From Rhodamnia argentea (taxonomy: Eukaryota; Streptophyta; Magnoliopsida; Myrtales; Myrtaceae): a stretch of DNA of 64,000 nucleotides. The stretch covers positions 29,319,294 through 29,383,293 of the forward strand of contig NC_063155.1 in NCBI RefSeq assembly GCF_020921035.1. Reading direction: 5' to 3'. Below, in pieces: positions 10,390 to 31,967 of this stretch. The position numbers and the translations under genes were made by a program. Within the stretch, counting starts at the first letter, position 1, and each line of letters begins with the position of its first letter. The notes beneath the pieces were generated by a model. The model did no database searches. It had not been told where the DNA came from and saw only the letters and a list, made by a program, of their open reading frames with translations.

Positions 10390-11079
10390 GGAGCCGGGAA
10401 GGGGGTTCGGGTTTAGCCTGGGATCGGAGGAGAAGTGGGGGATTAAGGGGAGGGTGGGAGGAGTGGTGGTGGAGAATGAGCGGCCATTGACCGAGTCACG
10501 CAGAGATAGAGAGAGTTGAAGGAGGAGGAGATGCGACTTTTGACTGCACCCTCCCGTCGTCGTTTTGCTTCGATCGTGTTTTGTTTTTCGTGTCGTTTTA
10601 CTTGACTTCTTTAAACTTTTTTTTTTTTTGGGGCCAAAAACCCAAGTCGATGGGAAGAAGACGGGAGAGGTGATGAAGAAGGAGGAGCAGGAGGAGGCGA
10701 TGCGGTGTCGTTTTTCAGTTGCGGTGGCGAGACCGAATTAATTGAAAATTAGTCAAAGTTGCAAATGTTTGACCGAAGGGGAGCCTCGCTTACCAAATAT
10801 TAAAATTAGCAACTTTGTTCTGTCGCTGTAGATTGGGTGGACAAATGTGACTTGCCCCCACACACATTGATTTCTCGTTATCTATCCCTTTATTTGTTAA
10901 TTTTTTTTTTTTAGGTGCGCTTGTCAATTATTTTAATATTATCTTATAAGATGAGATGTGACGAAGTACGTGTCGAACAATATTCCTGCTATTGCCCCCT
11001 TGAAAAAAAGGGAACAATCGATCACTTTGTGAAATGGATAACGAAGAGTGGACGAAATGATAGCAATGACGTAAAAACG
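10390..11079 (-). promoter_or_regulatory. 5' UTR and promoter-proximal region of BIR2 copy A
   Basis: A GA-rich stretch on the gene's opposite strand (10440-10520) lies immediately upstream of the ATG and is a likely 5' UTR. Beyond it come a poly-T tract (about 10617-10629) and an AT-rich region. The same segment is nearly identical upstream of copy B (16192-16897) and recognisably similar upstream of copy C (23823-25100), so all three copies carry upstream sequence with them. No TATA box could be assigned confidently. Confidence 0.5.
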
Positions 11080-11081
11080 AT

Positions 11082-11508
11082 GTGTGACAACACTTGATAC
11101 CTTCACTCGGGGAGATCGCAAAAAGAGAGTCTAAGTCTGAGCCCATTACATTCGTTCAAAAGTTTAAGCCAATAATCATGAGCCAATTATGATATATTAA
11201 CTGTTCCACGCCACATCAATTATCCAATGTAGGTCTTCTCCGAGACAACTCACGTGTGTATTGTAATAATTTCCCCCTCACATGTGAGCTCTGATACCAT
11301 TTGTTGAGAGCGCGTAATAGAAGCTTTATACTTTCACCGAGAGATCGCCAAGAGAAAGTCCAAGTTTGAGCTCGTCAACATGTCTAATTAAACTCACTTT
11401 CACTCAAAAATTTAAGTCAATAAGTCATGGGACATATTAACCGTTCCACACTAGATCATTTTTCCAATGTGGGACTTCTTTAAGACAACTCACACATACA
11501 TCCTAACA
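11082..11508 (-). mobile_element. Miniature LTR retrotransposon (TRIM/SMART type), two LTRs
   Basis: Read on the minus strand, a ~210-bp LTR starts TGTTAGGATG (ending at 11508) and ends CTCTCAACA. It is followed by AATGGTATCAGAGCTCACAT, whose TGGTATCAGAGC is the plant initiator-tRNA-Met primer-binding site. A purine tract GAGGGGGAAA then leads into a second, diverged LTR copy reaching about 11082. Only about 35 bp separate the LTRs and nothing is encoded, so the element must have moved in trans. It lies in the upstream region of BIR2 copy A. Confidence 0.82.
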
Positions 11509-12094
11509 TAAAACAAATAGAGTTATTAACAAATTATAAACGATCCATTGTTTTTTTTTTTTTTTACTTTTGTAACTCTTTGCATTAACTCTCTTTTTTT
11601 ATAAGTTTCCCCACAGCGTATAATAATGACTATTGGAAATCTCTTAATTGTTATCAGTGCCTATGCATGACATTTCAAATTATACTTTACATTAATCTAA
11701 AATCTGAACTAAAGAATTCAATCTTAATTTTTCTCAAAATACGAAGATTCGTATGAAATAAAATAGAATTCGACTATTAATTTATACTAATGGACAGAAA
11801 TTAATACATTCGCGAATGTGCGCAAAAATATATGCACATCTCTACACACACTAGAAGAGCCCGCACGACTTGATAAAATGTCGACGACATTATTTGAGAA
11901 ATATTTTCCCAACTTATATAAATTATAGTATAAAAATTAATAACTTTTATTCTTGAATTCTCTTAAACAAATCATAGTGCTCACAGGATGGGGAACATTA
12001 TATAAGAAAGTCGTGTAGAGTTGAAAAGGAAAATTGCGAAAATGTGAAAGAACAATAGCAATAAAAGTGAATCTTTTAACATTCTATATAAAAA
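11509..12094. other. Unique-looking AT-rich spacer inside block A
   Basis: No gene. The segment around 11600-11900 is shared with copies B (17570-17870) and C (25380-25640), so it belongs to the ancestral BIR2 upstream region rather than to an inserted element. Confidence 0.5.
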
Positions 12095-12530
12095 AAAAGG
12101 GGGAGTTAATACCACAGAATGCTCCAAATTGGTACATTTGTGACAAATTTATCCCAAACTATTTTTTTAACCACAAAAAATTTCAAACCGATACACTTGT
12201 GATAATTTTACCCCAAATACCTCAAACTAGTACATTCGTGACAAATTTACCCTTTATTATTTTCCGTTAAATCTAACAGTTAAAGTGCTAAGTTGTGTAA
12301 CTCGTAACAATTGACGAGTGTACCAGCTTGGGATTTTCACCTTCTATTTGTCACATGTATATCAGTTTATAATTTTTTTATGGTATTAACTTAATTTAAT
12401 AGAAGGTAAATTTGACACGGGTATACCAGTTTAGGATTTTTCGTGATAAAAAAATTTATTTAAGGATAAATCTATTACAAATATACCAGTTTATGATTTT
12501 TTATGGTTAAAAAATATCCGCTACGTACTT
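12095..12530. mobile_element. Foldback element built from GTGACAAATTTA-type repeats (copy A)
   Basis: The left half has repeated units of the form CCAAACT-n-GTGACAAATTTA. The right half has their complements (GATAAATCTATTACAAATAT and relatives), giving imperfect inverted symmetry around about 12300. The same kind of unit builds the element at 22302-22741 and a foldback at 24085-24590. No coding sequence. It is duplicated in block B at 18075-18495. Confidence 0.65.
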
Positions 12531-12830
12531 ATATTAACAGCCGCATGTCAAGCAATACTTCCATTCAATTTAGTGTCAGCTCTTAATTTGCAGGGGAACT
12601 GATGAAGGGACCTTTTTATTATGTGGTCCCAATAATTCTTTGGTTGAAGGTCCCAATATTTTTTTTTTTTTTTCGAAGGACTTACTTCATTCATTGCTTT
12701 AAGTAATACCATTATTACATGAAAAACGGACCTGTGAACATATTAAATCGCATAAGATTTTTGGGGGATTAGAGATCCAAGAACTAGAGAGCTCGTTTCA
12801 TCCATGGATTTTAGAGATCCAATCCGCCAC

Positions 12831-13682
12831 TAAGCGCGCTCATGGTAATACTTCTGATTTAGAAATCAACTTTTAACCAAAAGTTGATTTTTTTACTTAT
12901 ATTTAGAAGCATGAGTTGATTTATGATCAGAGAAATTCATTTAGTAACGGTTGAAATTTTCTACCTTTGGAGCATTATTAATACAAAATCTTCTACGACG
13001 AATTATTGTCGACAGCCGAAAAATTTCTACTTCATTTTTATTTTTTAAATTTTATTTAAAAATAAATTTGATTATTAAAAATTTAAAAAAATTTATTTAT
13101 ATTTTACTCCGGCGGCCGTAGATGGCGACTTGGTAGCGGAGGCAATGCCCATCAACAACGGTAGAAGGCGACAACGATTGGTAGCGGGTGGGTGTAGTGG
13201 GCAATGACGGGCAGTGTCCGCAAGGGGCCGCATGTGGCGATGGGCGGTGGTCGACAGGAGCGGCGGTAGTCGGCAGTGGTCGATGGAGGTCAGGGGGTGG
13301 CGGCGGCCAACAAGGGGCAATCGTGGGCGATGGTGGTCGGCGAGTGGGGGTCGTTAAGGAGCAATGGCGGGAGGCCACGGTGGGCGGCAATGGCCCGTGG
13401 AGGCCGACATTTAGCAGCGATGGCGGAGGTATGGTTGGGAGAGAGAGGCATAATGAAAAGAGAGTGAGAGCGTAATGAAAAGAGTGTGAGACGAGAAGTG
13501 CTTCTTAATTTGTGAAGTAATTTTTTTAACTTTTCGAATTGGAGGAAAAACAACTTTAGAAGTGAAAATTCACTTCAAAATTAAAATTTTCTTTCGAAAA
13601 TAAAATTTTTACCAAACAAATTTCTACTCCAAAAGAACTTATAAAATAAAAATTTACTTCAGTGTTACCATGCACACCCTAA
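12831..13682. mobile_element. PIF/Harbinger-like MITE with GC-rich core (copy A)
   Basis: The element (12834-13679) is bounded by TAA on both sides. Its ends are GCGCGCTCATGGTAATACTT and the complement of GTGTTACCATGCACACC. The 3-bp TWA target-site duplication and a G-rich TIR containing ATGGTAA are typical of Tourist/Harbinger MITEs. The same TIR type bounds 59985-60419. The centre (13110-13440) is strikingly GC-rich, with long overlapping open frames full of GGC/GGT codons. These look like chance frames in skewed DNA, not genes. Confidence 0.72.
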
Positions 13683-14060
13683 ATTTTCCAATAATTTTTT
13701 GGTCGAAGGTCCCAATAATTAGAGATGTTTAAATTGAAAGGTTTGGTCCGGGAGATTTCCCTGACGCCGAGTAGTCAGCTCGGACTGAATGATTCTTAGT
13801 TCGGTCGGGGCTAATTGGATCACCGGGCTTTAGCCCGATTTGGTAACTAGGCCCAGTCTTTGGTCCAAGGAAAATGGCGATGGGCTTGGCCATACAAAAC
13901 ATAAGAGCACTTAAAAGTCTAAAAGTCTCTTCTTGTCACGAACTTTCAATTGGGTGGCGCTTTCCCTCGAGCTAGCCGGATCTAATGTGTAGTTGGACCC
14001 CCCGATCCGACTTGGCGGACGAGTTTCATCATAAGCAAAGTTTGTAACAAAAAAGTCATA

Positions 14061-14645
14061 AACCTATTGCATTCATGCTAATTCAATCTATTCGATCAAT
14101 TGAGGCGTAAAATCGTTTATGTTGAAGCCGATAATCCTATATGCCATGAATGACAAGGGTAGTCGACCGACCTTATCGACGGCCTACGACCCTCGACAAT
14201 GTTGACTTTTTTTGTTATTTCTTCTTTTTCTTTTTTTTTTACTCGTTTTTTTTTTTTTCGATTGAGGACCAACAAGGGTAGTCAGCCGACCTTGTCGAGA
14301 GCCTACGACCCTCGCCAAGATTGTGCATTGGCGCCCTCGCCAAGGCATCGTAAACCTCTTGGAGTTCGGGCGAGGGTGGCGATGCCTAGTGCCAGCGAGG
14401 GGTTAGTCGGGGACCCTCGCCGGCACTCAATAAAAATAAAAAATAAAAATAAAAAATATAATAATTTATAAAATATATTAAAAAATTCACGTCGGTAACG
14501 ATCGTGTCACATAAGACAATCGGCATCCACGATTTTCAATCAAAATTGATTAAATAAACTCAATTGGCACACATGCAAAAGGTTTAAGACTAAATTGGCA
14601 CGATCAATAAATTTATTACTGAGTTGGCATTAAAGCAATAGGTTA
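14061..14645. mobile_element. TIR element (MULE-like MITE) in block A
   Basis: The left end AACCTATTGCATTCATGCTA and the right-end complement AACCTATTGCTTTAATGCCA are matching inverted ends. The core holds repeated CGACC/CCCTCGCC words (14160-14430), including a near-repeat of AAGGGTAGTC. Block C lacks it: there GAGCAGACTAAGAG runs straight across the site, so it entered after copy C separated from the A/B lineage or was cleanly lost from C. Confidence 0.6.
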
Positions 14646-15297
14646 ATGGTTTTACTTTATACTTATCTCGAGATTGCGAGAGTCAAATAGAGATGAGAGG
14701 CGGAGACGACGAGACCGATTGGTGGTGGTGGCGGCAAGCGAGCAAGAGAGCCCGAGGCAAAGAAAATGTCTGAGAAGGGGGAACAGGAGCTTGCAAATTA
14801 GGGTCACCCGGTTCTAATTTGTTGGCCCCGGACCGGCCCGAAGCGAAAGAAACTATTAGGCCAGGCAGTTCGACTCGGTCCCATTTTAGCCCAAAAAAAC
14901 TAATTCGGGTCAATTGGGTGGTCCGAGTTGTTGGGACACCAAGACTCTTTTAACACTTCCTTCTAGCATAATGTGGGATTTTTAATGAGAAACCTCTGAT
15001 TTTGAAATTGAAAGTTGTCCCAACGCACGGCCAACTACGCCAGCCCGTAAGGTTCGTGCCTCTTATCTTATGATGATAAAAGAACAATCTTCTTAGAGAG
15101 GGGGGTAAACTATGACACTATTTTTGTTTGACTTAGTAAATTAGTCATATAAACGAGTGCCTTTAGAACACTTGACAAACATACTAAATAAGCAGCAGTT
15201 TGATTTTCAAAGTATTGATCGCATATAACGTGAAAAAAAAAATCGATACATTAAAAATAGTAAACTGTACTTAGTTAGTTAACAAGTGTTTCGGATG

Positions 15298-15434
15298 ACC
15301 TCCTTAGTGAAGTACAGCTGATAGCAGGTCTTTTCTTCTTCAGCTTTTCTATATAAGTGATAGGGTTTGTTGCATGAACAATATAATCTTGAAGACTTCT
15401 GATGGTAATAGAAATTAGTGATTACTGCCACTGA
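15298..15434. other. Junction filler between duplication blocks A and B
   Basis: These about 137 bases match neither the end of block A's homology (15297) nor the BIR2 codons that resume at 15435. I find no second copy in the window. They supply the last codons and the stop of truncated BIR2 copy B (VSGSNH then stop). Such filler is typical of end-joining repair. Confidence 0.65.
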
Positions 15435-16191
15435 CTCTCTTCTTCCGACTAGCTCCACCAAAGTACCACCACCAGAACCCAAACCCTAGCAACAAATTTC
15501 CTGCAGCTCCAACAACACCCACAGCGATAATTATAGCAAGGCTCTTCTTACTCAACCCCCCGCACGACCCAAGAGGCTTACCACACAGACCATCGTTGCC
15601 AGAGAAATCTTCGGAACCGAACCTCGACAGCTCCGACGGTATAGATCCAGAGAGATGATTGTCCTTGACAGAGAACTGCTTCAACCGGTCCAAGCGACCC
15701 ACCTCGTAAGGAATGGAGCCGGACAGCTTGTTATCGCTCAAAATCAAGTAGTTCAAGAACTTACAGTCGGCGATCTGGCTGGGGATGGAGCCGGAGAGCG
15801 AGTTCGAGGAGAGATCGAGCCTGACGAGGTAAGGCAACCACTGGCAGATTTGCGTTGGGATGGGGCCATTGAGCTTGTTTTGGGAGAGATCCAGCGTCTG
15901 GAGGCTGTGACAGTTCTTGAGCGACTCGGGCAAGCCGCCGGAGAGCTCCAACCCGGTGAGCTGGAGGCTGATGATGCGGTTCTTGTTCAGGTTCCAGCAG
16001 GAGACGCCCTGGAGGTTGCAGATGTGGGAGGCGGAGGTGTTGGTGAAGGTCCACAAGCTGAGGGAGCCCTGCGGGTCGGTGAGCGAGCTCTTCACGCCCT
16101 CGAGGCAGAGCACGTCGTCCTCGACGGTGGCGGCGAACAGTAGCAACCAGTGGAGGGAGAGGATCGCCGAGGCGGCGGCGGAGGCCGACAT
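15415..16191 (-). CDS. BIR2-like copy B: LRR ectodomain plus transmembrane helix, no kinase domain
   Basis: A 258-codon frame almost identical to residues 1-252 of copy A, with nine amino-acid differences by eye (A22T, S46L, E61Q, E70K, F81L, A224V, L227V, S232N, L239F). It keeps the signal peptide, cap cysteines, all LRRs, the transmembrane helix and the SRKKR stop-transfer. It then runs into filler DNA and stops after VSGSNH. The juxtamembrane and pseudokinase regions are absent and are not found elsewhere nearby. There is no frameshift or premature stop in the retained part. If expressed it would be a membrane-anchored BIR2 ectodomain. It may equally be a truncated pseudogene. Its 5' upstream region is a near-copy of that of copy A. 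Confidence 0.75.
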   Translation of the reverse strand: MSASAAASAILSLHWLLLFAATVEDDVLCLEGVKSSLTDPQGSLSLWTFTNTSASHICNLQGVSCWNLNKNRIISLQLTGLELSGGLPESLKNCHSLQTLDLSQNKLNGPIPTQICQWLPYLVRLDLSSNSLSGSIPSQIADCKFLNYLILSDNKLSGSIPYEVGRLDRLKQFSVKDNHLSGSIPSELSRFGSEDFSGNDGLCGKPLGSCGGLSKKSLAIIIAVGVVGAAGNLLLGFGFWWWYFGGASRKKRVSGSNH

Positions 16192-16897
16192 GGAGCCGGG
16201 AAGGGGGTTCGGGTTTAGCCTGGGATCGGAGGAGAAGTGGGGGATTAAGGGGAGGGTGGGAGGAGTGGTGGTGGAGAATGAGCGGCCGTTGACCGAGTCA
16301 CACAGAGATAGAGAGAGTTGAAGGAGGAGGAGATGCGACTTTTGACTACCCCCTCCCCGTCGTCGTTTTGCTTCGATCGTGTTTTGTTTTTCGTGTCGTT
16401 TTACTTGACTTCTTTAAACTTTTTTTTTTTTTTTTTTTGGGCCAAAAACCCAAGTCGATGGGAAGAAGACGGGAGAGGTGATGAAGAAGGAGGAGCAGGA
16501 GGAGGCGATGCGGTGTCGTTTTTCAGTTGCGGTGGCGAGACCGAATTAATTGAAAATTAGTCAAAGTTGCAAATGTTTGACCGAAGGAGAGCCTCGCTTA
16601 CCAAATATTAAAATTAGCAACTTTATTCTGTCGCCGTAGATTGGGTGGACAAATGTGGCTTGCCCCCCACACACATTGATTTCTCGTTATCTATCTCTTT
16701 ATTTGTTATTATTATTATATTTTTTTTAGGTGTGCTTGTCAATTATTTTAATATTATCTTATAAGATGAGATGTGACGAAGTACGTGTCGAACAATATTC
16801 CTGCAATTGCCCTCTTGAAAAAAAGGGAACAATCGATCACTTTGTGAAATGGATAACGAAGAGCGGACGAAATGATAGCGGTGACGTAAAAACGATG
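16192..16897 (-). promoter_or_regulatory. 5' UTR and promoter-proximal region of BIR2 copy B
   Basis: Near-identical to 10390-11079, apart from a longer poly-T tract (about 16421-16438) and scattered substitutions. It may therefore keep promoter activity, but nothing in the sequence proves it. Confidence 0.45.
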
Positions 16898-17478
16898 TGT
16901 GACAACACCCGATACCTTCACTCGGGGAGATCGCAAAAAGAGAGTCTAAGTCCGAGCCCATTACATTCGTTCAAAAGTTTAAGCCAATAATCACGAGTCA
17001 ATTATGATATATTAACTGTTTCACGCCACATCAATTATCCAATGTAGGTCTTCTCCGAGACAACTCACGTGTGCATCGTAATAATTTCCCCCTCACATGT
17101 GAACTCTGATACCATTTGTTGAGAGCGCGTAACAGAAGCTTTGTACTTTCACTGGGAGTCGTAGGCCAACTAGAATATATTAACTTCTCCATATCACATC
17201 AATTATTCAATGTAGATCTTCTCGGAGACAACTTAATAATTTCCCCCTCACATGTGAGCTCTGATACCATTTGTTGAGAGTGCGCAACGGAAGATCTACA
17301 CTTTCACCGAGAGATCGCCAAGAGCAAGTCCAAATTTGAGCTCGTCAACATGTCTAATTAAACTCACTTTCACTCAAAAATTTAAGTCAATAAGTCATGG
17401 GACATATTAACCGTTCCACACTAGATCATTTTTCCAATGTGGGACTTCTTTAAGACAATTCACACGTACATCCTAACA
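16898..17478 (-). mobile_element. Miniature LTR retrotransposon with three LTR units (copy B)
   Basis: The counterpart of the TRIM at 11082-11508, but the order is LTR - PBS/PPT - shortened LTR - PBS/PPT - LTR. The complement of the primer-binding site (CTCTGATACCATTTGTTGAG) occurs twice, near 17106 and 17260. The middle LTR is deleted internally (about 150 bp left). Tandem LTR arrays like this arise by recombination between LTRs, here after or during the A/B duplication. Confidence 0.8.
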
Positions 17479-18074
17479 TAAAAAAAATAGAGTTATTAAC
17501 AAATTATAAACGATCCATTGTTTTTTTTTTTTTTTACTTTTGTAACTCTTTGCATTAACTCTCTTTTTTTATAAGTTTCCCCACAGCGTATAATAATGAC
17601 TATTGGAAATCTCTTAATTGTTATCGGTGCCTATGCTTGACATTTCAGATTATACTTTACATTAATCTAAAATCCGAACTAAAGAATTCAATCTTAATTT
17701 TTCTCAAAATACGAAGATTCGTATGAAATAAAATAGAATTCGACTATTAATTTATACTAATGGACAGAAATTAATACATTCATGACTGTGCGCAAAAATA
17801 TATGCACATCTCTACACACACTAGAAGAGCCCGCACGACTTGATAAATGTCGACGACATTATTTGAGAAATATTTTCCCAACTTATATAAATTATAGTAT
17901 AAAAATTAATAACTTTTATTCTTTATTCTCTTAAACAAATCACAGTGCTTGCACGATGGGGAACATTATATAAGAAAGTCACGTGTGGAGTTGAAAAGGA
18001 AAATTGCAAAAATGTGAAAGAACAATAGCAATAAAAGTGAATCTTTTAACATTCTATATAAAAAAAGGGGGGGG

Positions 18075-18495
18075 ATTAATACCACGGAATACTTCAAATT
18101 GGTACACATGTGACAAATTTATCCCAAACTATTTTTTTAACCATAAAAAATTTCAAACCGATACGCTTGTGATAATTTTACCCCAAATACCCCAAACTAG
18201 TACATCCGTGACAAATTTATCCTCCACTAATTTTCGTTAAATCTAACAGTTAAAGTGCTAAGTTGTGTGCCTCGTGACAATTGACGGGTGTACCAGCTTG
18301 GGATTTTCACGTTCTATTTGTCACGTGTGTATCGGTTTAGAATTTTTTATGGTATTAACTTAATTTAACGAAAGGTAAATTTGACACGGGTATACCAGTT
18401 TAGGATTTTTCGTGATAAAAAAAATTATTTTAGGATAAATCTATCACAGGTATACTAATTTATGATTTTTTATGGTTAAAAAAAATCCGTTACGT
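18075..18495. mobile_element. Foldback element (copy B)
   Basis: Duplicate of 12095-12530 with minor substitutions and the same GTGACAAATTTA-type units in inverted arrangement. Confidence 0.65.
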
Positions 18496-18797
18496 ACTTA
18501 TATTAACGGCCGCATGTCAAGCAATGCTTCCATTCAATTTAGTGTCAGCTATTAATTTGCAGGGGAACTGATGAAGGGACCTTTTTATTATGTGGTCCCA
18601 ATAATTCTTTGGTTGAAGGTCCCAATATTTTTTTTTTTTTCGAAAGACTTACTTCATTCATTGCTTTAAGTAATACCATTATTACATGAAAAGCGGACCT
18701 GTGAACATATTAAATCGCATAAGATTTTTGGGGGATTAGAGATCCAAGAACTAGAGAGCTCGTTTCATCCATGGATTTTAGAGATCCAATCCGCCAC

Positions 18798-19653
18798 TAA
18801 GCGCGCTCATGGTAATACTTCTGATTTAGAAGTCAACTTTTAACCAAAAGTTGATTTTTTTACTTATATTTAGAAGCGTGAGTTGATTTATGATGAGAGA
18901 AATTCATTTAGTAACGGTTGTAATTTTCTAACTTTGGAGCATTATTAATACAAAATCTTCTACGGCGAATTATTGTCGACAATCGAAAAATTTCTACTTC
19001 ATTTTTATTTTTTAAATTTTATTTAAAAATAAATTTGATTATTAAAATTTAAAAAATTTTATTTATATTTTACTCCGGCGGCCGTAGATGGCGACTTGGT
19101 GGCAGAGGCAATGCCCATCAACAACGGTAGAAGGTGACAACGATTGGTAGCGGGTGGCTGTACTGGGCAGCGACAGGCAGTGGTCCGCAAGGGGCCGCAT
19201 GTGGCGATGGGCGGTGGTCGACAGGAGCGGCGGTAGTCGGCGGTGGTCGATGGAGGTCAGGGGGTGGCGGCGGCCAACGAGGGGCAATCGTGGGCGATGG
19301 TGGTCGGCGAGTGGGGGTCGTCAAGGAGCAATGGCGGGAGGCCACGGTGGGCGGCAATGGTCTGCGGAGGCCAACATTTGGCAGCAACGGCGGAGGCATG
19401 GTTGGGCGAGAGAGGCATAATGAAAAGAGAATGAGAGCACAATGAAAAGATGGTGAGACGAGAAGCGCTTCTTGATTTGTGAAACAATTTTTTTAACTTC
19501 TCAAATTGGAGAAAAAACAACTTCAAAAGTGAAAATTCACTTTAAAATTAAAAATTTCTTTCAAAAATAAAATTTTTACCAAACGAATTTCTACTTAAAA
19601 AACACTTACAAAATAGAAACCCACTTCTAGAAGTGTTACCAGGCGCACCCTAA
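18798..19653. mobile_element. PIF/Harbinger-like MITE (copy B)
   Basis: Duplicate of 12831-13682. TAA flanks the element at both ends (18798-18800 and 19651-19653). The right terminus, AGTGTTACCAGGCGCACC, is closer to the inferred TIR than in copy A. The GC-rich core again gives long non-coding open frames. Confidence 0.72.
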
Positions 19654-20039
19654 ATTTCCCAATAATTTTTTGGTCGAAGGTCCCAATAATTAGAGATGTT
19701 TAAATTGAAAGGTTTGGTCCGGGAGATTTCTCTGACGCCGAGTAGTCAGCTCGGACTGAATGATTCTTAGTTCGGTCGGGGCTAATTGGACCACCGGGCT
19801 TTAGCCTGATTTGGTAACTAGGCCCAGTCTTTGGTCCAAGGAAAATGGCGATGGGCTTGGCCATACAAAACATAAGAGCACTTAAAAGTCTAAAAGTCTC
19901 TTCTTGTCATGAACTTTCAATTGGGTGGCGCTTTCCCCCGAGCTAGCCGGATCTAGTGTGTAGTTGGACCCCCGGATCCGGCTTGGCGGACGAGTTTCGT
20001 CACGAGCAAAGTTAGTAACAAAAATTTCATAAATCTATT

Positions 20040-20625
20040 GCATTCATGCTAATTCAGTCCATTCAATCAATTGAGACGTAAAATCACTTATCTCAAAGCC
20101 GATAATCCTATATGCCATGAATGACAAGGGTAGTCAGCCGACCTTATCGACGGCCTATGACTCTCGACAGTGTTGACTTTTTTTTGTTATTTCTTCTTTT
20201 TCTTTTTTTTTTTTACTCCTTTTTTTCGATTGAGGACCAGGCAAGGGTAGTCGACCGACCTTGTCGAGGGCCTACGACCCTTGCCAAGATTGTACATTGG
20301 CGCCCTCGCCGAGGCATCGTGACCCTCTTGGAGTTTGAGCGAGGGTGGCGATGCCTAGTGCCGGCAAGGGGTTAGTCAAGGACCCTCGCCGGCACTTAAT
20401 CAAAAAAAAGAACAAAAAAATTAAAAATATATATAAATTTATAAATTTATATTAAAAACATTCACGTCGGTAACGATCGTGTCATATAAGACAATCGGCA
20501 TCCACGATTTTCAATCAAATTTGACTAAATAAACTCAATTGGCACACATACAAAATGTTTAAGACTAAATTGGCACAATCAAAAAATTTATAACCGAGTT
20601 GGCATTAAAGCAATAGGTTAATGAT
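20040..20625. mobile_element. TIR element (MULE-like MITE, copy B)
   Basis: Duplicate of 14061-14645 with the same inverted ends and CCCTCGCC-rich core. Confidence 0.6.
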
Positions 20626-21116
20626 TTTATTTTATACTTATCCCGAGATTGCGAGAGTCAAATAGAGATGAGAGGCGGAGACGACGAGACCGATTGATGG
20701 TGGTGGTGGTAAGCGAGTAAGAGAGCCTGAGGCAAAGAAAATGTCTGAGAAGGGGGAACAGGAGCTTGCAAATTAGGGTCAGGTAGTCCGACGTGGTCCC
20801 ATTTTAGCCCAAAAAAACTAATTCGGGTCAATTGGGTGGTCCGAATTTTTGGGACACCAAGACTCTTAAGGTTCATGCCTCTTATCTTATGATGATAAAA
20901 GAACAATCTTCTTAGAGAGGGGGTAGACTATGATACTATTTCGTTAGACTTAGTAAATTAGTCATATAAGCGAGTGCCTTTAGAACACTTGACAAACATA
21001 CTAAATAAGCAGCAGTTCGATTTTCAAAGTATTGATCACATATAACGTGAAAACAAAAATATTGATAAATTAAAAATAGTAAATTGTACTTAGTTAGTTA
21101 ACAACTGTTTCGGATG

Positions 21117-23166
21117 TACCGTTTAATAAATCCTTAATAAAAAAAAATCTTATACACAAAAAGATGCAATAAGGTTCTAAATCTTCGAATCAGCACGCTA
21201 GAGTTTTAATCATTTTTCTAAAAATAAGCAATTAACTGTTTTAGTGTTGCCTACGTGGTAGTTCAAATTTTCTTATGGGGCGAACTACCAATCATTTTCA
21301 GAAATTAAATGACTAAATTCAACCAAGAAAGGAATCCGTTTCTGTTTGGAGCGCGAATGATAACCACTATGTTTTGGGAATCAATTTCTGGCCAGAAATA
21401 GGCTTTTTATTTCTATTTTTTTTACTAGTTTATGAGTAGATAAACGCGTTTAATAACGACATAAAATTTCTATTTCCATTACGTAAACTCGTTTGATAAC
21501 AACATAAAATTTATACTATTGCCAATGACCGACGGACCAATGGACGACGGAAGGTGGATGGGTGACCAGCAGATTGGCGCACGGCGCAATAGGCAACTAG
21601 CACAAGGTGGAACCGGTGACCAACGACAAGGATGCGAGAGAGGGTGTGAGCAATGAGGAGAATTCTTATTTCTCATTTTTGTTCCATAAATAGAAATTTG
21701 AAAATTTTAACTTCTCACTTCTATTCCAAACCTATTTTTATAATAAAATTTCGTTATAAAAATTAGAAAAGTGAAATTAAGTTGCCAAATGGATTTCTCT
21801 TCCAGGTTTGGAATAGAATGGTTATCATTCACGCCTTTAGTAGTCCCGTTTTCACTGGAGTTGAAATGTTTGACCTTGACTTTCTTGGTTAGGCGCACTT
21901 TTCTACTTTCAAATCTAAAATTAGAGATTCTATTAGACACCGAGGACCCTTATATTAAACATTTTGAAGACATTAATAGAAGAAACTATTTACCCGTGAT
22001 AAATATGGGAAAACAATTTTTTTTTTAGGGGCGAGTTACACTCATTGATTTTTATTTCCAAACACATAAAAGTTGATAAACAAATGCGAACCAATGATTA
22101 TATGTCTTTGGAGAAATCTTAAGGTTAGATTACATGGTTAATGAAATTCCATTTTTTTTTCCAAACTAAGTATACGATAGCGGGTTGTAAAGATAATAAC
22201 CCTTACGACGAGTGTTAGACTTTTATTGAATTTTGGGCACAAAATTTAAAAGATATCCTTTCTTTTTGTTTGCTTCTCGAAGAGTTTTATATTTATATTT
22301 CGGGAAAAAGCTACTAAAAACCCTAAACTATGCCCGTTGTGACACATTTACCCCAAACTTTTATTTGTGACACAAAAAACCCTAAACTTGTACGCATGTG
22401 ATACATTTACCCTAAACTTGTGCTTGTGTGACACATTTACCCCAAACTTTTTGTTGTGACACTAAAAACTCCAAACTTATATTCGTGTGACACATTTACC
22501 TCAAATTTTTGAAGTAAATGTGTCGCACGAATATAAGTTTAGGATTTTTGATGTCACAAAAAAATATTTTGGGGTAAATATGTCACACGGGTATAAGTTT
22601 AGGATTTTCAATGTCACAAAAAAAAGTTTGGGGTAAATATGTCACATGAGTAAAAATTTGAGATTTTTGGTGTCACAAAAAAAAGTTTAGGGTAAATGTG
22701 TCACAATTGGCATAGTTCAAAATTTTTGGTGGTTTTTTCCCTTATATTTCACGTGATACAATTTCACTTCTTCTTTTTTCCTGATCCCTCTCCTTTTCTT
22801 TCTAAATTCTTCTATATATATTAGGAAGATAAAACCATGGAGATAGATTTCTAATGCCATCATGAAAACAAAACCATGCAAATACACTTATAGAAACATT
22901 TAGACAAGAATATTCATGGACAGATAGTTTATTTTCCTAAGTTGAGAGGCTCCCGAAGCAAGCCGGACCAACTGTACACCAATGTGGACCACCACCACGA
23001 AAACGACACCGCGTCTTCATTCCCACTTTGGTGTTTCCCTACCATTTTAGCAACGTTGCAGCCCAATGATTTGGTAATTCATGGTTACGTTCTTGAACCG
23101 TAATGACTAGACACCGCCTGCCGGTCGTCCGAGGGTATCGCCGCGGCGAGCTTGAGAGACAAAGGC
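21117..23166. repeat. Duplicated copy of the MYB-gene 3' flank (spacer plus last codons)
   Basis: This segment matches 27240-28590 with moderate divergence. Landmarks are GCAATAAG near 21165/27288, TTGACTTTCTTGGTTAGG near 21877/27394, and ACCATGGAGATAGATTTCTA near 22833/28004. The final stretch, ending at GCGAGCTTGAGAGACA, matches exon 3 of the MYB gene. It therefore carries the end of that gene and its downstream region, now joined to BIR2 copy C. One 440-bp MITE has been inserted and at least two deletions of about 85-105 bp have occurred. Confidence 0.8.
22293..22750. mobile_element. Foldback MULE-type MITE with perfect 9-bp target-site duplication
   Basis: The element (22302-22741) starts GGGAAAAAGCTACTAAAAAC and its right half is the inverted complement, so almost the whole 440 bp folds back. 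Each arm is made of repeated units of the type CCCTAAAC-n-GTGTGACACATTTAC. TTATATTTC flanks it exactly at 22293-22301 and 22742-22750. The matching site near the MYB gene (about 27838) is uninterrupted, which confirms the insertion. Confidence 0.88.
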
Positions 23167-23822
23167 TCTTCTTGGTTCTTACTCAACCCCCCACACGGCC
23201 CAAGAGGCTTACCACACAGACCGTCGTTGCCGGAGAAATCGTCGGAACTGAACTTCGACAGCTCCGACGGTATAGATCCAGAGAGATGATTGTCCTTGAC
23301 AGAGAAGTGCTTCAACCGCTTCAAACGACCCAACTCGTCAGGAATGGAGCCGGACAGCTTGTTGTCGCTCAAAATCAAGATGTTCAAGAACTTGCAGTCG
23401 ACGATCTGGCTCGGGATGGAGCCGGAGAGCGAGTTCGAGGAGAGATCGAGCCTGACGAGGTAAGGCAACCACCGGCAGATTTGCGTCGGGATCGGGCCGC
23501 CGAGCTTGTTTTGGGAGAGATCCAGGGTCTGGAGGCTGCGACAGTTCTTGAGCGACTCGGGTAAGCCGCCGGAGAGCTCGAACCCGGGGAGCTGGAGGCT
23601 GATGATGCGGTTCTCGTTCGGGTTCCAGCAGGTGACGCCCTGGAGGTTGCAGATGTGGGAGGCGGAGGTGTTGGTGAAGGTCCACGAGCTGAGGGAGCCA
23701 TGCGGGTCGGCGAGCGAGCTCTTCACGCCCTCGAGGCAGCGCACGTCGTCCTCGACGGCGGCGGCAAACAGTAGCAGCCAGTGGAGGGAGAGAATCGCGG
23801 CAGCGGCGGCGGAGGCCGCCAT
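23085..23822 (-). CDS. Chimeric gene: BIR2-like LRR ectodomain (copy C) fused in frame to the MYB C-terminal tail
   Basis: A 245-codon frame. Residues 1-215 are a diverged BIR2-like ectodomain with signal peptide, cap cysteines and about five LRRs, without frameshift or stop. Residues 216-245 (beginning NQEEPLSLKLAAAIPSDDRQ) come from exon 3 of the neighbouring MYBD-like gene, in the same reading frame (its [19 protein letters not shown]). The junction near 23163-23168 sits at a shared AGGC. There is no transmembrane helix, so the product should be secreted. The tail keeps an LxLxL motif (221-225). Downstream lies the duplicated MYB 3' flank, so the unit combines BIR2 upstream DNA with a MYB 3' end. 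A later deletion replaced the last MYB codons with SSHYGSRT. It could be a live chimera or a pseudogene. Confidence 0.75.
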   Translation of the reverse strand: MAASAAAAAILSLHWLLLFAAAVEDDVRCLEGVKSSLADPHGSLSSWTFTNTSASHICNLQGVTCWNPNENRIISLQLPGFELSGGLPESLKNCRSLQTLDLSQNKLGGPIPTQICRWLPYLVRLDLSSNSLSGSIPSQIVDCKFLNILILSDNKLSGSIPDELGRLKRLKHFSVKDNHLSGSIPSELSKFSSDDFSGNDGLCGKPLGPCGGLSKNQEEPLSLKLAAAIPSDDRQAVSSHYGSRT

Positions 23823-24084
23823 GGAGGTGGGACGGGGCCTAGGGTTTAGCCTGGGAACGGAGGAGAATTGGGGATTAAGGGGAGGGTAGGAGGCGCGGTG
23901 GTAGAGAATGAGCGGCCATTGACCGAGTCAGAAAGAGAGAGAGAGAGAAAGGGTTGAAGGATGAGGAGGAGATGCGACTTTTGACGGCCCTCCAAGCCCC
24001 TCATTCTGTTGATTTTCCTCTTGTCGTCGCCATTTTGCTCCGACCGTGTTTTGTTTTTCGTGTCGTTTTTGCTTCGATCGTGCT

Positions 24085-24590
24085 CTTTGTTTTTTTTATC
24101 ACAAAAAACTTTAAATCGATATCTGTGATAAATTTATTTAAATTAATATAAACTGATATATCAATGATAAATTTACCTAAATTAATTTTTTTATTACCAA
24201 AATTTCAAACCGATACATTTATGACAAATTTACTGTCAGTTAATTTTTCGTTAAAGATGACACATGGTATTTTTTTTTTTTTTGTGAGAACATGTGATAG
24301 TTTATTGATATATTAGTTTGAGGTTTTCACTCTTTGTTTGTCACAAGTATATCAGTTTTGAGTTTTTTGTAGTATTAAATCAATTTAACGGAAACTAACC
24401 GATGGTAAATTTGTCGCATGATGTCCCGGTTTGACCTTTTTAGTGGTAAAAAAATTAGTTTGAGGAAAATTTATCATAGGTATATCAGTTTGAGAATTTT
24501 GATGATTTGTCATAGATATATATTAGTTTAAAATTTTTAATGTTCAAAAAAATAATTAAAGATAAATTTATCATGATTGTACTAGTTTGG
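24085..24590. mobile_element. Foldback element in block C
   Basis: AT-rich, with repeated phrases such as GATAAATTTA and AAACCGATACATTTATGACA, and their complements in the right half. It interrupts the poly-T site upstream of BIR2 copy C, where A and B have no element, so it is an independent insertion of the same broad family as 12095-12530. Confidence 0.6.
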
Positions 24591-24701
24591 CCCGAGTTCG
24601 CTTTGAAAGCCGGATTTCCTTTTTCTGGCCAAAATCCCAAATTGATGGGAAGAAGACGAGAGGTGATGCAGGAGGAGGAGGACGCATGCGGCGTCGTTTC
24701 T

Positions 24702-24757
24702 CGGTTTAGTTTAGGTGTTCTCTTTTTTTTTTTGGTCAAACGGTTTGGTTTAGGGTG
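24702..24757 (-). mobile_element. Minimal poly(A) retroposon insertion with about 16-bp TSD
   Basis: CGGTTTAGTTTAGGTG (24702-24717) and CGGTTTGGTTTAGGGTG (24741-24757) flank a T-rich run ending GGTCAAA. On the minus strand this reads TTTGACC followed by poly(A), like the insertions at 2763, 35065 and 63636. The A and B blocks show no such insertion. Confidence 0.6.
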
Positions 24758-26074
24758 AAGAGGAATTTTGAGTGGTGGCGATTGAATAATTCAACATTAG
24801 TCAAACTTGTAGCCTTGCAAATGTTTGACCGAAGGAGCCCCTCACACCCGGATTTCTTGTTGCCTGTCTCTTTTTTTGTCATTATTTATTATTATCTTTT
24901 TGAGTATGCTTATTAATTTTTTCTATATTGTCTCGTAAAATAAGATACGACGAATTATGTGTCAAGCGATGCTCCCAACGATTACACTTGAAAAAAGCGG
25001 GGGAACGATTGATCACTTCGTGAAATGTTACTCCCTCTCTTATACGTTGGGAATACGAAGAGCGGACGCAGTGATAATATTGAAATAAAAGCGATGCTTA
25101 ACAAGCTAATTTACTCTGGTTTGCTGACATGTAAAACTCCAAAATTGAAATATATTAATCAATTTCCTCGCGTGGAATAGTTTTATGCTCCTGCTCGTTT
25201 TGCTTCCAATTAAGAGTCATGCTTGGCCCATTTGATAACATAAGTTTTGTCCAATCAAGAACATTGATTTTAATGAGATCCGATGTTGTATATTAGCAGT
25301 TGTTGAAAATCTTTTTTGAAAGCACTTCGTATCAACTGTGCCTTTTGAAGTTATTTTTCTCTCGACATCGCGATAACGTATTAAATTTCCCCATGTCATA
25401 TAACAATGACGATTGTGAATTTTCTAATTCGTATTGGCCCCCATATTTTTACATTGAGATTCAATCTTTATGTTGTTCAAAAAATGAAAGTTCATATGGA
25501 ATAGAATACAATTCAACGAATATAATTTATACTAAAATATGTGTAATGATTTACAAAAAACGAAAAAGTCCGCGATTGTGCATAAAAATACACTCACGTA
25601 TGTACACACACTAGACAGAGACCCGTGCCGATTGATAATTGTTATTTGAGAAATATATTCACAAATCAAATAGCTCGGAAATGATTCTCAGTTCGATCGG
25701 GACTTGGTGGACCACCGGGCTTAGCCCGATTTGGTAATGAGGCCCACTTTTTGGTCCAAGGAAATGGCGATGGGCCTGTCGATAGTCCAAGGGAACAGCC
25801 ACAAAACAGTAGAGCACTTAAAATTCTCAAAGTCAATTCTGGTCACGGACTTCCAATTTGGTAACTCTTTCCATCTAGCTAGGCGGATTTAGCGTGTAGT
25901 TGCACCCCCGGATCCGGCGTGCCGGACGAGTTTCTTCATGAGCAGACTAAGAGATGTAAGAGCCAACTAGAGATGAGAGGCCGAGACGACAAGACCGATT
26001 GGTGGCGGCGGTGGTGAGTAGGCGAGTGAGAAGGCCAGAGGCAAAGAAAATGTCTGAGAAGGGAGAGTGGGGTG

Positions 26075-26432
26075 TGGTTCATACTCCCTATAGATAGAAA
26101 AGCATGCGGGTCCCGCTCACCGATAAGCAGGCGGGGGTCTAAGGGAGCATCATCCCTTATAAGCCGTAGGGCTTTTATAGTTTAAGTTAGTATTGTATTG
26201 GTAGTTTGGACTTAGACACATGAATAACTATTATTATATACATATATATACTCATTTAACTTGTAATTGAATGATATAAGAGATGTGTGGGCTACTAACT
26301 ATAGTATAATCCATTATTTGATATATTCCTAGTTTAAGGGTGAATCAAGAAAAACCTTGTGTTTTGATTTTTTTTTCCTCGTTTTTACTCTTTACTTTGT
26401 TGTGGTTTGTACACCGAATCTTAACAAACTTG
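26075..26432. mobile_element. Solo-LTR-like insertion in block C
   Basis: About 358 bp that interrupt sequence shared with blocks A and B (A continues directly from GTCTGAGAAGGGGG to CTTGCAAATTAG). It begins TGTGGTTCATACTCC and ends GAATCTTAACA, has TG...CA ends, AT-rich TATATA sequence in the middle and no coding capacity. The target-site duplication is not clear. Confidence 0.55.
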
Positions 26433-26931
26433 CAAATTAGAGTTATCCCAAGGCCTAGACCGGCCTGAAGAGAAAGAAACTATTCGGCCGGGTAGCCCCA
26501 CTTGGTCCAATTTTAGCCCAAAAAAACTAATTCGGGTCAATTGGGTGGTTCGAGTTTTTTGGGATACCATGATTCTTTTAGCACCACAAATGGGGTGGCC
26601 CTAACACACAACATTTCCTTCGAGCACAGTTTGTGGGATTTTAACGAGAAACCTCCACTTTTGAATCTGGAATTGTCGCAACGCTCGGCCAACTACACCA
26701 GCCCTTAAGGTTCAGGCCTATGCCGTACGATCATATAAAAAAATCTCTTAAAAATGAGGGCAAACTACGGCACTATTTTGTTAGACTCTATAAATTAGTC
26801 CTATAAATGAGCGCTTTTAGAACAGTTGATAAGCACGCTAAATAAGGAACGGTTCAATTTTCAAAGTACTAATCACGCGTAACACGAGACCAATTAATAC
26901 ATTAAAAAACAGTAAAATTGTTGAAGTTGTT

Positions 26932-27232
26932 ATTATCTCACATCGGTTGTGAATGGACCTTGTATGCTCAATCCGACTTGTAACGTGAGAGTTGTCCCAC
27001 ATCGGTTGCGAATGAATCTTGTATGCTCAATCCAGCTTACAACGTGAGAGGGGGTGTTAAAGCTGTTGTTGTTGTCCCATATCGGTTGTGAATGGATCTC
27101 GTATGCTCTTTATATTTATGTGATCTCCCTCTTTCTATTAGGTTAAGTTAAGGATATGGCTGTTCCAACGGATTTTCTTCTCTCGCATTTCAAAAGGTAG
27201 CTCAAAGGATGAGGTTATCCCAACAATCTCTC
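26932..27232. mobile_element. LTR-like insertion with a threefold internal repeat
   Basis: TGTTGAAG at the left and ATCCCAACA at the right give TG...CA ends. Inside, a unit containing CACATCGGTTGTGAATGG and CTTGTATGCTCAATCC occurs three times (near 26940, 26990 and 27072), the last one truncated. The tandem promoter-like repeats and missing coding capacity fit a solo LTR. No matching TSD was found. Confidence 0.5.
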
Positions 27233-28477
27233 CCTCAAAAGCGAGGTTTTTCCTCTCACACATTGAGGTTGACAAGTAAAAAAGATGCAATAAGATCTTT
27301 AAACCTTTGAATCAGTACACCAAAGTTTTACACTTTTTTCTTAAAAAAGATGCAATTAATTCTTTTAATATTGCCTCCGCGGTACTTCGGCCTTGACTTT
27401 CTTGGTTAGGGTCACTTTTGTGCTTTCAAGTCTAAAGCACGAGAACAGTGGGAATTCACTTTTCTATTACACACAGAGGACTCTCGTATTAAAAGCTTTG
27501 AAGAGATTAATAAATGACACTATATACCCATGATAAATACGGAAAAACATATTTTTTTTTAAGGGGCGAGTTACACTTATTGGTTTTTAAAACCAGTTAT
27601 ATACGAACTGATAAACAACATGGACTAATCATTATATGTTTCGCGGGAAATGTTAAGGTTATTTTACATGGTTAATAAAATTCCATCTTTTCGCCGGAAT
27701 AAGTAAATGATAGCGGGTTGTAAACGTAATAACACACTTATGACGAGCGTTGGAAATTTGTTGAACTTTGGGCACAAGATTTAAAAGATTTCCAATGAAC
27801 GTATCGTCTCTTTTTGTTTGCTTCTCGACGAGTTTTATGTTCACATTCACGTGATAGAGCGCCACCTCTTTTCCTATCTCTCTATCTCCTTTTATTTCAA
27901 ATTCTTTGAGAGGTCTCTTTCTTACGGACAGACGGATCACAACTTGCGCACATGGTAGAATCGAAACCCTAATAAATAAATAAAATAGAAAGAAGGAAGA
28001 AAAAACCATGGAGATAGATTTCTAATGCCATCATGTAACATATTGTACACCCAAAAATATTCTAAATAAAAAGGGAAAGGAAGCAGAGACTTATAGACAA
28101 GAATATTCACGGACACATATTTTCTTTTCCTAAGTTTGAGGGTTCCCCAAAGCAAGCCGGACCAATAACGGGACAGTACCGGGTCCTCTCCCATTTACCC
28201 AAGAAAGAGCAACCCGGACCAACTGGACCACCACCACGAAAACGACACCGCATCTTCGCTCCCACTTAGACGTTTCCCTAGCTTTAACGACATAAAATCT
28301 GTACAAACCAGACAAATTACTCCTACTTAACCCTCTTTTAAGTCTAAATTCTCTACTTTAATCTACGCAAGAAGATCCCCCCGCCGCCCACCATTTAGCG
28401 ACGTTGCCGCCCAATCATTTGGCAATCTATGGATACCCTCTTGAATGACAATGACCCCGACAAGACATTTTGATTCC

Positions 28478-29845
28478 TCAGGCGACGCTGATGATGCTGT
28501 TGGTTGGGGACGAGTGCGGGGTTGTCGCCGGCGCCGATACCGCCTGCTGGTCGTCGGAGGGTACCGCCGTGGCGAGCTTGAGAGACAGAGGCCAAGGTTC
28601 CGCCGACTCCGGAGCCACGGTCGCCTTGTTGAGGTCGAGAGCGGCCATTTTCGAAGACGGAGGGATAGGGAGGACCGGAACCGGACGGATGGGCTTCCAT
28701 GGGTGGCCCTCTTTTCCCAGCCGCAGATTTTCCAGCAGATTCTCGCCGGTTCCCGGCGAAACCGCCGGAGGCAAGGAAAGAGGGAAGCTTGGTACTTGGT
28801 GCGCTTGATGACCCTCCTCCATTGTAGAACTGGAAACCCCAAAGTACTGCAACAGAAATTTCAGGGGAGAAGCAATCTTAAGTTGATAACATACTGTTGA
28901 TCTTCCTTGTCTTTTATGATCCTTTCCAAACCCTAGAGGAAAGATCGATTATTCCATTTATGGCACTGCCATACCTTTTATGGAAAAGAAAATCCAGAAA
29001 AAAAAAAAAATCAAGGATAGGATGTCGCAGCCTCTCATTCGGCATGTTCAACGCAGATAAAGACAACGAATCAAAACAGTTGTGCAAGGATTTGCGGATT
29101 TGGGTTGTTCATCAACAGCTAGGAACAACAATTAATGCTCTTGTTACTTCAAGATAGTGCAGATTTTCAGGAGAAAAGCTAGACTATCGAACTATTGATG
29201 CTGTGTTTACCGAGTCGGTGGTGATGTCGAAGAGGCTGGACCGCCGGCGGCGGCGGTTCTGGTTGATCCGCCGGAGGAAGTACTTCTGGGCGTGGCTCGC
29301 AACCTGGGTCGGCGTCCGCGTCTTCACGAAGTTTCTCGAGATCCCTCTCCAGTCCCCCTTCCCCACCTTCTGGAGCCCCAGCAAGAACAGCCTGTGCTCT
29401 TCCTCCGTCCATGGAACTCCTATAAGTCAAGCCCCCGTAATTAAATTAAATCACCTCGAGAATCTTACCAAGACCCCAGTTCACCTAACTAAAAAAAATC
29501 GTATAAAATCCGACGACCCAGAAACGGCTCATCGAACTTTGCAGTTTTATGAATCGTAGCGATTCAATTACCTCTCTTCCTCTCACGGCTGCGACCGGAG
29601 GGGTGAACGACGTCGTCGGAGGCGTAGCCGGCGTCGACGGCGTTGGAGGTCTCCAGGGTGTGCTCGTACTGAGAGAGGTTGTTCATGCTCGCGCTCTTCC
29701 TAAAAGCCGACTCCTCCTCCATCAGACGCACCCCAAATAGCATGATGCCGCCAGCCCCCTCCGCGGCGCCGCCGGCCCCTCCGTCCGCAGCGCAGGTCCG
29801 CGAGTTATGCCCGTTGTTCCCGCACTGCGAGCAAGTCCGCGACAT
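28478..29845 (-). CDS. MYB-related (SHAQKYF-class) transcription factor, MYBD-like
   Basis: Three exons, 29572-29845, 29211-29419 and 28478-28846, join at GT/AG sites to 283 residues. A CCHC zinc knuckle (C5, C8, H13, C18) is followed by MLFGV, the R/KLFGV-type repression motif. One MYB repeat has the SHAQKYF signature (133-139) and a following basic RRRRRRSS stretch. The tail carries LSLKL (LxLxL, EAR-like) and ends IISVA. This order matches the I-box/KUA1 group, closest in my reading to Arabidopsis MYBD (AT1G70000), a light- and cytokinin-linked nuclear repressor; that subgroup call is inference. The start is the ATG immediately before the zinc knuckle. Its exon-3 end and 3' flank were copied by the duplication that created BIR2 copy C. 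Confidence 0.9.
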
Positions 29846-30150
29846 CTCCTGGACTGTCCCTCCTTTCCACTCCACTCGCTGATCACACACGCAGACCGAG
29901 AGCCTGAGATATAGGGGGGGTGGGGTGGGCTCAAAGTTCCTCAGACCACGAAAGAGGAGGAGAGGGAAGCAGAGCGTTTCTAGAGAGAGAAAATGTGCGG
30001 GGAAATTGCATGGCGATGGGCGAAGGATTAAGAGAGTGACGGGGAGTAAATAAACGGTGGGGATGGATTGATGGACGGACGGCGCATGGCGGCCCGTTCG
30101 AATATTGAGCGATTCAAACGATGCCAGGTGTCCTCGGAATTTCACTTCTT
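29846..30150 (-). promoter_or_regulatory. 5' UTR / proximal promoter of the MYBD-like gene
   Basis: CT-rich on the gene strand just upstream of the ATG, as is common for plant leaders. The reading frame also stays open upstream to 30145, but those codons resemble no family member, so the start before the zinc knuckle is preferred. Confidence 0.4.
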
Positions 30151-31967
30151 TGAGGGTTGGAAAATATTCATTTATCGCGCCGTGACGATTGGGGTAACAT
30201 TATCAAATTCTCGTGTAGATATTGTACAGCATCTGCATATGTATGTCGACATGCACCTTTGAGAATACTTTGCTCACACATTATCCAAATTTTAGCTATA
30301 AATCCTAGTAAATAGTTGCGAAAATAATGTTCGCTCCGATCGGTAGTTCGTCGAAGAGGGAAAGTACGGGAAAAGAGAATATCATCCCGAGCCAAAAAAA
30401 AGAAAACGAAAAGGGACAGTTTCTATTTAATGCCAATCATAATATAGTCTTCCTAATTATGTGCAAATATGTAAGGGAAGTATTATAACAATTTGACGTG
30501 ACAAATTATATGGTTTGTTTATATCGGGTACTATAATATATGTCAATAATTTGTTTCGATTATTCAATGATCTCGACAATCATTCTGAACCTCTGACGTG
30601 TGCGTGATTAATTAAGTTAATGGCCGTGATTAGAGCTCGAGGAAAAGGTGGAGAAAATTGTCTGCTCGCCAATGGAAAGGCAATGGGAAGTGGAGGGCAA
30701 GCAATCTTTTGATTAAGTTATTGGAATGTGGGGTTGGAAATGGAACTGAAAGTAAGAGAGAAAAATTGGAAAAAGAAAAGGGGTGGTGGAGCAGCAAAAG
30801 AAGGGGGGGCGGGAACGTCTCCACCGTCGGCTTGGCATATTCGATTGGCCCCTCCTTTTTGGAAAGAGATTTGGTTCGTGTCTGTGTTGACCCCATCGTC
30901 CATAGTGAACGGTGACGGTGACGACGGGCGGCGGCGATGGTGGTGGTGGAGATGGTGGTGCGGTCTACCTTCAGCCACGATCCGTCTCCTCTTTTACCTC
31001 AGCCTTTCTATGTGGCTGGCTGCGTGTGCGGATTCCTTTTGCTTTTCCATCTTTTTTTTTTGTTTTTCGGCCTTTCTTTATGTAGTTTGAAGGTTTGGTG
31101 GGCTGCTGGCCTTTTTCGCTTCCGTTCTTTCCTTCCTTTCGTTCCGCCTTTTTTTACTTTTTTTTCGTTTCCCGGCTTTGACCTTTGGGAGCGAGAGTGG
31201 TGAGACGGGGTGGATTCTCCCATCTCCAGAGATCTTCCCTCGATTCGCTTCACATGCATGGGAGCTTTGCCCACAAGCCGACGAAACGCGTCGCCGTCCT
31301 GAGGCCATGACACGGATGAAGATAAGGAACGATGCGGTCGCGACAGATTGGGTGGGTGTTCCTACAGTCTTATTCTCGACGGTGATGAGACAAATCCGAA
31401 CTGATTAGAGCTAGAACAATTATACATCAGGAAAGCGACGCGCTCGTTGCATATACCCCGCAGCAATGCCGTTCCCATTGTCTTTGGTGCCGTTGGACGA
31501 TAAGGTTAAAATTCGCGGATCATAAGTGCGGGGATGCCTTTAATGTGGATTTGGAATTAGGCGAAGATCTTTTCGATGTTTCGATCTTGTTTATAATCCG
31601 TCGATCAGAGATAATCCCAATTGAAAAAAAAATAATAATAATCAAGGTGATTCCGACCCTTTAACAAAGCGTGGTCGGGTTAAAGCGCGAGTCGGCAGAG
31701 CTTAGTGAAAAGGAATAATCACGTGCCCGAATGGGGCAGTGTCAATAACAAGGCGAATCCGCGGTTTTCCTTTCCTTCAGGGTGGGTGGTTTGGTGTGGT
31801 TCACGTGCGCTAAATGGGCCCTTTTTTTTTTTTGTCCGGAGGGCGGCTTATTGGATCGGCACGTGTGGGAAGCGCGGCGTTTGTCGCGACGCGCGCGACA
31901 TCGATCCGGCCACCTCGGTTCTCCCGAACTTGTGTGGCGGCTAAGGTTCCGCTCCTCCTCAGCCTAC

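Follow-up and report, generated by a model that had tools for sequence, protein, structure and literature searches.

An open reading frame in the genome of Rhodamnia argentea joins the ectodomain part of a BIR3-type receptor gene to a fragment of a neighbouring MYB gene. This frame, here called copy C (23085-23822, minus strand, 245 aa, intact), lies in a stretch of 64,000 nucleotides of contig NC_063155.1, hereafter the window, and almost certainly marks the junction of a single tandem duplication that broke BIR3 at one end and MYB exon 3 at the other. As the best explanation overall I propose, with a probability of roughly 0.55 and judging from sequence, that this tandem-duplication chimera would encode a secreted, LRR-only BIR3 able to sequester SERK/BAK1.

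Results

Copy C consists of a hydrophobic N-terminus, an LRRNT, LRRs and a short MYB-derived tail. The initial annotation had described it as an in-frame BIR-MYB chimera, and this is borne out, as the frame is intact and 57 bp of MYB sequence are read in the frame of MYB exon 3. In the assembly (346.7 Mb, 74 contigs) copy C is matched over its whole length at 100% at C6:29342381-29343115; the next-best matches are copies A and B of the window, followed by a 57% relative on contig C8 (150 of the 2297 candidates were scored). Pfam returns LRRNT_2 and LRR matches, as for a BIR-type short LRR ectodomain with an LRRNT cap, and no kinase match, whereas copy A does give kinase matches. The BIR3-type part (23178-23822, minus strand) makes up residues 1-215 and is free of indels with respect to both other copies: 193/215 residues are identical to copy A and 190/215 to copy B, and A and B share 210/215 with each other. 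Copy C leaves the BIR3 sequence at residue 216, ahead of the transmembrane segment (TM), the hydrophobic stretch of copy A starting near residue 217 with the TM judged by eye; copy C thus has the LRRs and lacks the BIR3 TM, and its signal peptide was likewise judged by eye.

Over the aligned ectodomain, copy C is identical to AtBIR3 at 130/190 positions and to AtBIR2 at 109/189, both reference sequences having been checked against PDB chains. By this comparison the ectodomain is BIR3-type, and BIR2 is ruled out as the parent since BIR3 fits better; of the BIR2-type ectodomain of 215 residues annotated earlier, the length and the BIR affiliation stand and the type is corrected. The relative on C8 (L004, 1399-3270) is a full-length open reading frame of 623 aa with 57% identity to the copy C ectodomain, which I read as a BIR2-like, separate gene.

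The full-length BIR3-type receptor of the window, copy A (8569-10389, minus strand, 606 aa), has LRRs, a TM (by eye) and a kinase-like domain. Copy B (15415-16191, minus strand, 258 aa) is 96.8% alike to A over 1.7 kb and is truncated a few juxtamembrane residues past the TM; it departs from A at 15435, the point matching 9633 in A, and its final six residues are absent from A. The 137 bp beside this junction (15298-15434) have no match in the two stretches compared, nor one of at least 80 bp in the self-comparison of the window. From its sequence, copy B is possibly a membrane-anchored, kinase-less form of BIR3. The parental MYB gene (28478-29845, minus strand) was modelled with three exons, at 29845-29572, at 29416-29211 and a third ending at 28478, the start of which is uncertain among four acceptor sites. 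It carries a motif of 14 protein letters, a SHAQKYF MYB repeat and a C-terminal LSLKL, and presumably belongs to the SHAQKYF-type MYB repressors; Pfam gave no match for the exon-3 open reading frame alone. Further along the window, the plus strand holds a long open reading frame (41773-43074, 433 aa) that, as I take it, resembles a GATL-type glycosyltransferase.

The two halves of copy C meet at the AGGC microhomology at 23163-23166 (minus strand), which is common to both parents; the BIR match begins at 23162 and the MYB match runs to 23166, in agreement with the shared AGGC noted before. The MYB-derived segment (23110-23166, minus strand) is 57 bp long, in the MYB frame and identical at 51/57 bp to 28536-28592. 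It amounts to 18 complete codons and two bases of a nineteenth, with 16/19 residues identical, and not to the about 22 residues of the initial annotation. The BIR frame enters the MYB frame because copy C has 7 nt more than copy A on the BIR side of AGGC, at about 23169-23175; the residues around QEE just before the MYB part derive from this insertion. Further on, a net 77 bp of MYB sequence, the MYB stop among it, is missing from copy C, so that the last seven residues (SHYGSRT) and the stop of copy C come from beyond the deletion; an AATAAA follows about 150 nt past this stop. The DNA beyond was correctly recognised as a duplicated MYB 3' flank: 21874-23109 (minus strand), which includes the site of the 77-bp deletion, matches 27391-28445 in ordered blocks, with no match in that chain for 22300-22822. 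The earlier description of a MYB tail with LxLxL and a MYB 3' end holds for the LSLKL, which is kept behind a signal-peptide-like N-terminus, but not for the MYB stop. The MYB DNA-binding repeat is absent, and only the 57 bp of exon 3 are recognisable. A function for the MYB tail is rejected as unsupported, since the deletion that took the MYB stop also removed some of the MYB C-terminal tail, and the structure prediction has low confidence in this region (pLDDT below 50 for residues 198-245); the tail with its LxLxL is more readily explained as an incidental 3' end than by a role of its own.

The origin of the junction is apparent from the surrounding DNA. A comparison of 23161-30600 with 9500-23170, run for the plus strand, gave 32 matches, and a two-strand self-comparison of the window showed no inverted match between these stretches. 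Two ordered chains from 23176 to 28592 account for 25 of the 32 matches, nine to the unit of copy A and 16 to that of copy B, and the other seven lie out of order inside the repeat at 24090-24588. The duplicated unit of copy C (23176-28592) is therefore colinear with the units of A and B, which cease to match at the junction (23166); on extending the alignment beyond both ends the match stops at 23166 and 28592, and the rest of the MYB beyond 28592 has no other copy at length within the window. As the unit is colinear and its match ends at these two points, the chimera is the junction of a tandem duplication. A query with the junction against the assembly yielded five matches: the junction itself, the BIR half of copy A and that of copy B, and two pieces on the MYB side. 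A junction of the copy C type occurs once in the assembly. Both parents, MYB and the full-length copy A, are whole and stand at the ends of the colinear duplicated unit with the junction between them.

The events started from the minus-strand order MYB, intergenic DNA, BIR3. The duplication broke BIR3 just after its LRR domain and MYB in exon 3; MYB came to stand at one end and a full-length BIR3, now copy A, at the other, with the 5' half of BIR3 running into a second MYB 3' end between them. A processed or transposed BIR3 insertion is rejected as the origin because the homology continues through the intergenic DNA to MYB. The locus has done alike twice, since a later, younger duplication cut BIR3 in copy B at the TM border, about 0.1 kb from the first breakpoint; the closeness of the two breakpoints may be coincidence.

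Across the unit of copy C the noncoding DNA has diverged by K 0.192, measured on 2159 aligned bp; the 11 blocks come from BLAST matches to either A or B and are biased to better-conserved DNA. For the coding sequences of A and C, dS is 0.128 (NG86), 0.185 (YN00) or 0.208 (ML); it resembles the flank K, and one event explains both. If substitutions accumulate at about 6e-9 per site per year, this divergence would date the duplication to the order of 10-17 million years ago.

Upstream of copy C, about 250 bp (23823-24069, minus strand) are homologous to the upstream region of copy A, after which a foldback repeat of about 0.5 kb (24070-24608) intervenes and the homology resumes past it. What had been called a BIR2 upstream region is hence confirmed for these 250 bp, as BIR3-type, and then gives way to the repeat. 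The repeat has relatives on many contigs, with at least 143 matches in the genome when pieces and the repeat itself are counted (among 40 of 2366 first-look candidates). As it interrupts the upstream region, the expression of copy C may differ from that of copy A.

Several measures suggest that the ectodomain of copy C has been constrained. The pairwise ML dN/dS between A and C is 0.231, with 2dlnL of 18.25 against 1.0, 8.20 against 0.6 and 5.47 against 0.5; for B and C it is 0.289 (13.17, 4.85 and 2.78, respectively, 0.5 not being rejected), and for A and B 0.288, where no tested omega is rejected. Other estimators give 0.25-0.41 for A-C and 0.34-0.49 for B-C, NG86 and LWL85 both arriving at 0.41 for A-C. 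A neutral C paired with an A constrained near 0.2 would be expected to give a pairwise dN/dS of about 0.6. Under a clock, a single omega (0.26) reaches a lnL of -1055.59, compared with -1059.31 for a neutral C and -1057.69 for neutral C and B, which are worse by 3.72 and by only 2.1 lnL, respectively. The 645 coding bp contain no indel, whereas 2159 bp of noncoding DNA contain 49. On the C lineage by itself, neutrality would predict about 5 to 8, and the chance of finding none is 0.0004 to 0.008; the contrast may be inflated by the AT-rich noncoding control (GC 0.35-0.38 in 24001-28000). The differences between A and C fall on codon positions 1, 2 and 3 in the numbers 14, 8 and 21. Against constraint, 22 of the 37 differing codons are nonsynonymous, and in neutral simulations started from copy A, with indels left out, the 215 codons stay stop-free in 15 to 31% of runs (600 to 1236 of 4000).

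The placement of the changes on branches says less. When AtBIR3 is used for parsimony, five of 19 amino-acid sites are placed on C, four on the A/B stem and ten on neither; with AtBIR2 added the figures are six, three and ten, and this split does not separate a constrained from a neutral C. With L004 as outgroup the six models disagree. Two favour an omega of at least 1 for C over a common one by about 6 lnL, and where the outgroup shares its omega with A and B, a C omega of 7.39 (the upper bound) beats the common omega (-1729.21 vs -1735.37, 6.2 lnL). This gain vanishes once the outgroup is given an omega of its own; without a clock a neutral C is then only 0.42 lnL worse (-1725.64 vs -1725.22), and the three models with a separate outgroup omega do not distinguish 0.29, 0.30 and 1 for C. 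The silent sites of L004 are saturated, its branch length is at the bound in the own-omega models, and the models cannot apportion change between the C branch and the A/B stem. The outgroup branch test was set aside because of this saturation, though it lends no weight to constraint. The dN/dS check that the initial annotation had proposed for residues 1-215 is accordingly divided: A-C lies at 0.23-0.41 and an omega of 1 is rejected pairwise, but with the distant outgroup a neutral C fits nearly equally well. The 43 differences between A and C are evenly spread (the longest identical run, 61 bp, is reached in 48% of random placements), and therefore gene conversion is not indicated; with dS like the flank K, it is not supported as the cause of the low ectodomain divergence. 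On balance, purifying selection on the ectodomain of copy C is probable.

The surface of the ectodomain also appears preserved. All eight cysteines of AtBIR3 are kept in copy C, which has one NxS/T site, common to A and B. The residues matching F146 and R170 of AtBIR3, which I take to be SERK contacts, are conserved in A, B and C. In excerpts of a published study F146A/R170A is the mutant pair in BIR3-HSL3 constructs (PMC9191895). The best PDB match of a structure model of copy C is BIR3 in the BIR3-SERK1 complex, at 69% identity; the model was built with three sequences and has a mean pLDDT of 61.8, with residues 198-245 and 38-62 under 50, so that the fold match adds little beyond the sequence match.

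Discussion

According to excerpts of a review, BIR ectodomains occupy the BAK1/SERK interface that a ligand-bound receptor needs and hold BAK1 back, and BIR proteins determine how much SERK co-receptor immune and growth receptors can draw on (PMC10317173). In copy C, the promoter-proximal region and signal peptide of BIR3 would drive a soluble 215-residue ectodomain with a disordered tail, and the MYB part would serve solely as the 3' end, with stop, 3' UTR and poly(A). I infer secretion from the hydrophobic N-terminus and the missing TM. The product would then act as a BIR3 without anchor and pseudokinase, taking the SERK/BAK1 surface that ligand-bound receptors need, and the occupied surface would dampen immune and brassinosteroid signalling. 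The signs of constraint and the conserved residues count indirectly in favour of this decoy idea, which is plausible; that SERK sequestration is what copy C actually does is a tentative suggestion. The full scenario, a natural soluble BIR3 decoy that was born by duplication, kept by selection, titrates SERKs extracellularly and so resets the immune and brassinosteroid threshold, is speculative and rather unlikely as a whole.

Alternatively, copy C may be a decaying, truncated BIR3 pseudogene that has no function and whose frame is open by chance, a serious possibility though not the one I prefer. It was truncated from birth, its frame into MYB hinges on the 7-nt insertion, a foldback repeat lies upstream and the 77-bp deletion damages the MYB tail; moreover, a stop-free frame would survive by chance in an appreciable fraction of the neutral simulations, indels being left out of these, and the test with L004 as outgroup is compatible with a neutral C, one version even favouring a raised omega. 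A pseudogene does not readily account for the absence of indels from 645 bp, where about 5 to 8 are expected on a neutral lineage, nor for the pairwise A-C omega of 0.23 with 0.6 rejected, and amino-acid changes are in no clear excess on C (5 vs 4 on the stem, or 6 vs 3).

It is improbable that copy C is expressed in some other role, either as an extracellular LRR protein that binds a ligand or glycan or through a transcript that lowers those of BIR3 or MYB. The similarity required of such a transcript exists, as copy C is 88% alike to both A and B over 0.9 kb and 89% alike to MYB over 57 bp, but the lean towards third positions and the lack of indels point to constraint on the protein, and for a binding role no candidate ligand is at hand. 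Still less probable is an artefact of assembly, in which collapsed or misjoined haplotypes would have produced the junction or the copies A and B. These two copies are close enough to invite the thought, and all was judged at the level of the assembly; yet the divergence of C from A and B, about 12% over 0.9 kb and about 17% in the aligned blocks of its flanks, is more than I would expect of alleles, the three copies lie on one contig of at least 29.3 Mb, the next-best match elsewhere reaches only 57% among the 150 of 2297 candidates scored, and the unit is colinear. The reading of copy C as a secreted BIR3 is worth testing. If true, a soluble, heritable BIR3 ectodomain would compete naturally for the SERK surface, and the sequestration model could be put to the test in a plant that has such a protein of its own. 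The locus is in addition a clear plant case of a chimera at a tandem-duplication junction, in which both parents and much of the unit are still readable.

The initial annotation knew of no described gene of this make-up. The titles and opening abstract lines of the papers listed, from literature that lacks most subscription journals, gave neither a BIR-MYB chimera nor a secreted BIR ectodomain of natural origin, in line with that statement; the make-up itself is less exceptional than it seemed, because it follows from a tandem-duplication breakpoint and because secreted, ectodomain-only relatives of receptor kinases are known. The nearest system is the BIR family of LRR-RLK-Xa pseudokinase receptors, and in particular BIR3 (At1g27190), which copy C resembles in its ectodomain (130/190), eight cysteines, F146/R170 matches and best fold match, and from which it differs in lacking both the TM and the pseudokinase found there. 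In form, XA21D of rice is alike, being an LRR-only relative of a receptor kinase without a TM, though of a family (XA21) that differs from BIR; its truncation arose via a transposon, that of copy C at a duplication breakpoint. The SLG of Brassica, akin to the ectodomain of SRK and standing beside it, is a similar case with an S-domain in place of the LRRs of copy C, and I know of no foreign tail on SLG. Excerpts of one paper describe XA21D as predicted to be secreted, without a TM and giving a partial resistance response, and liken it to SLG, the secreted S-locus glycoprotein (PMC8872720). As to the route of birth, a study of Drosophila yakuba describes chimeric structures that tandem duplication gave rise to (PMC5460883); these arose in the same way as copy C, in a population sample of an animal, whereas copy C concerns a plant receptor gene with a silent divergence of about 0.2.
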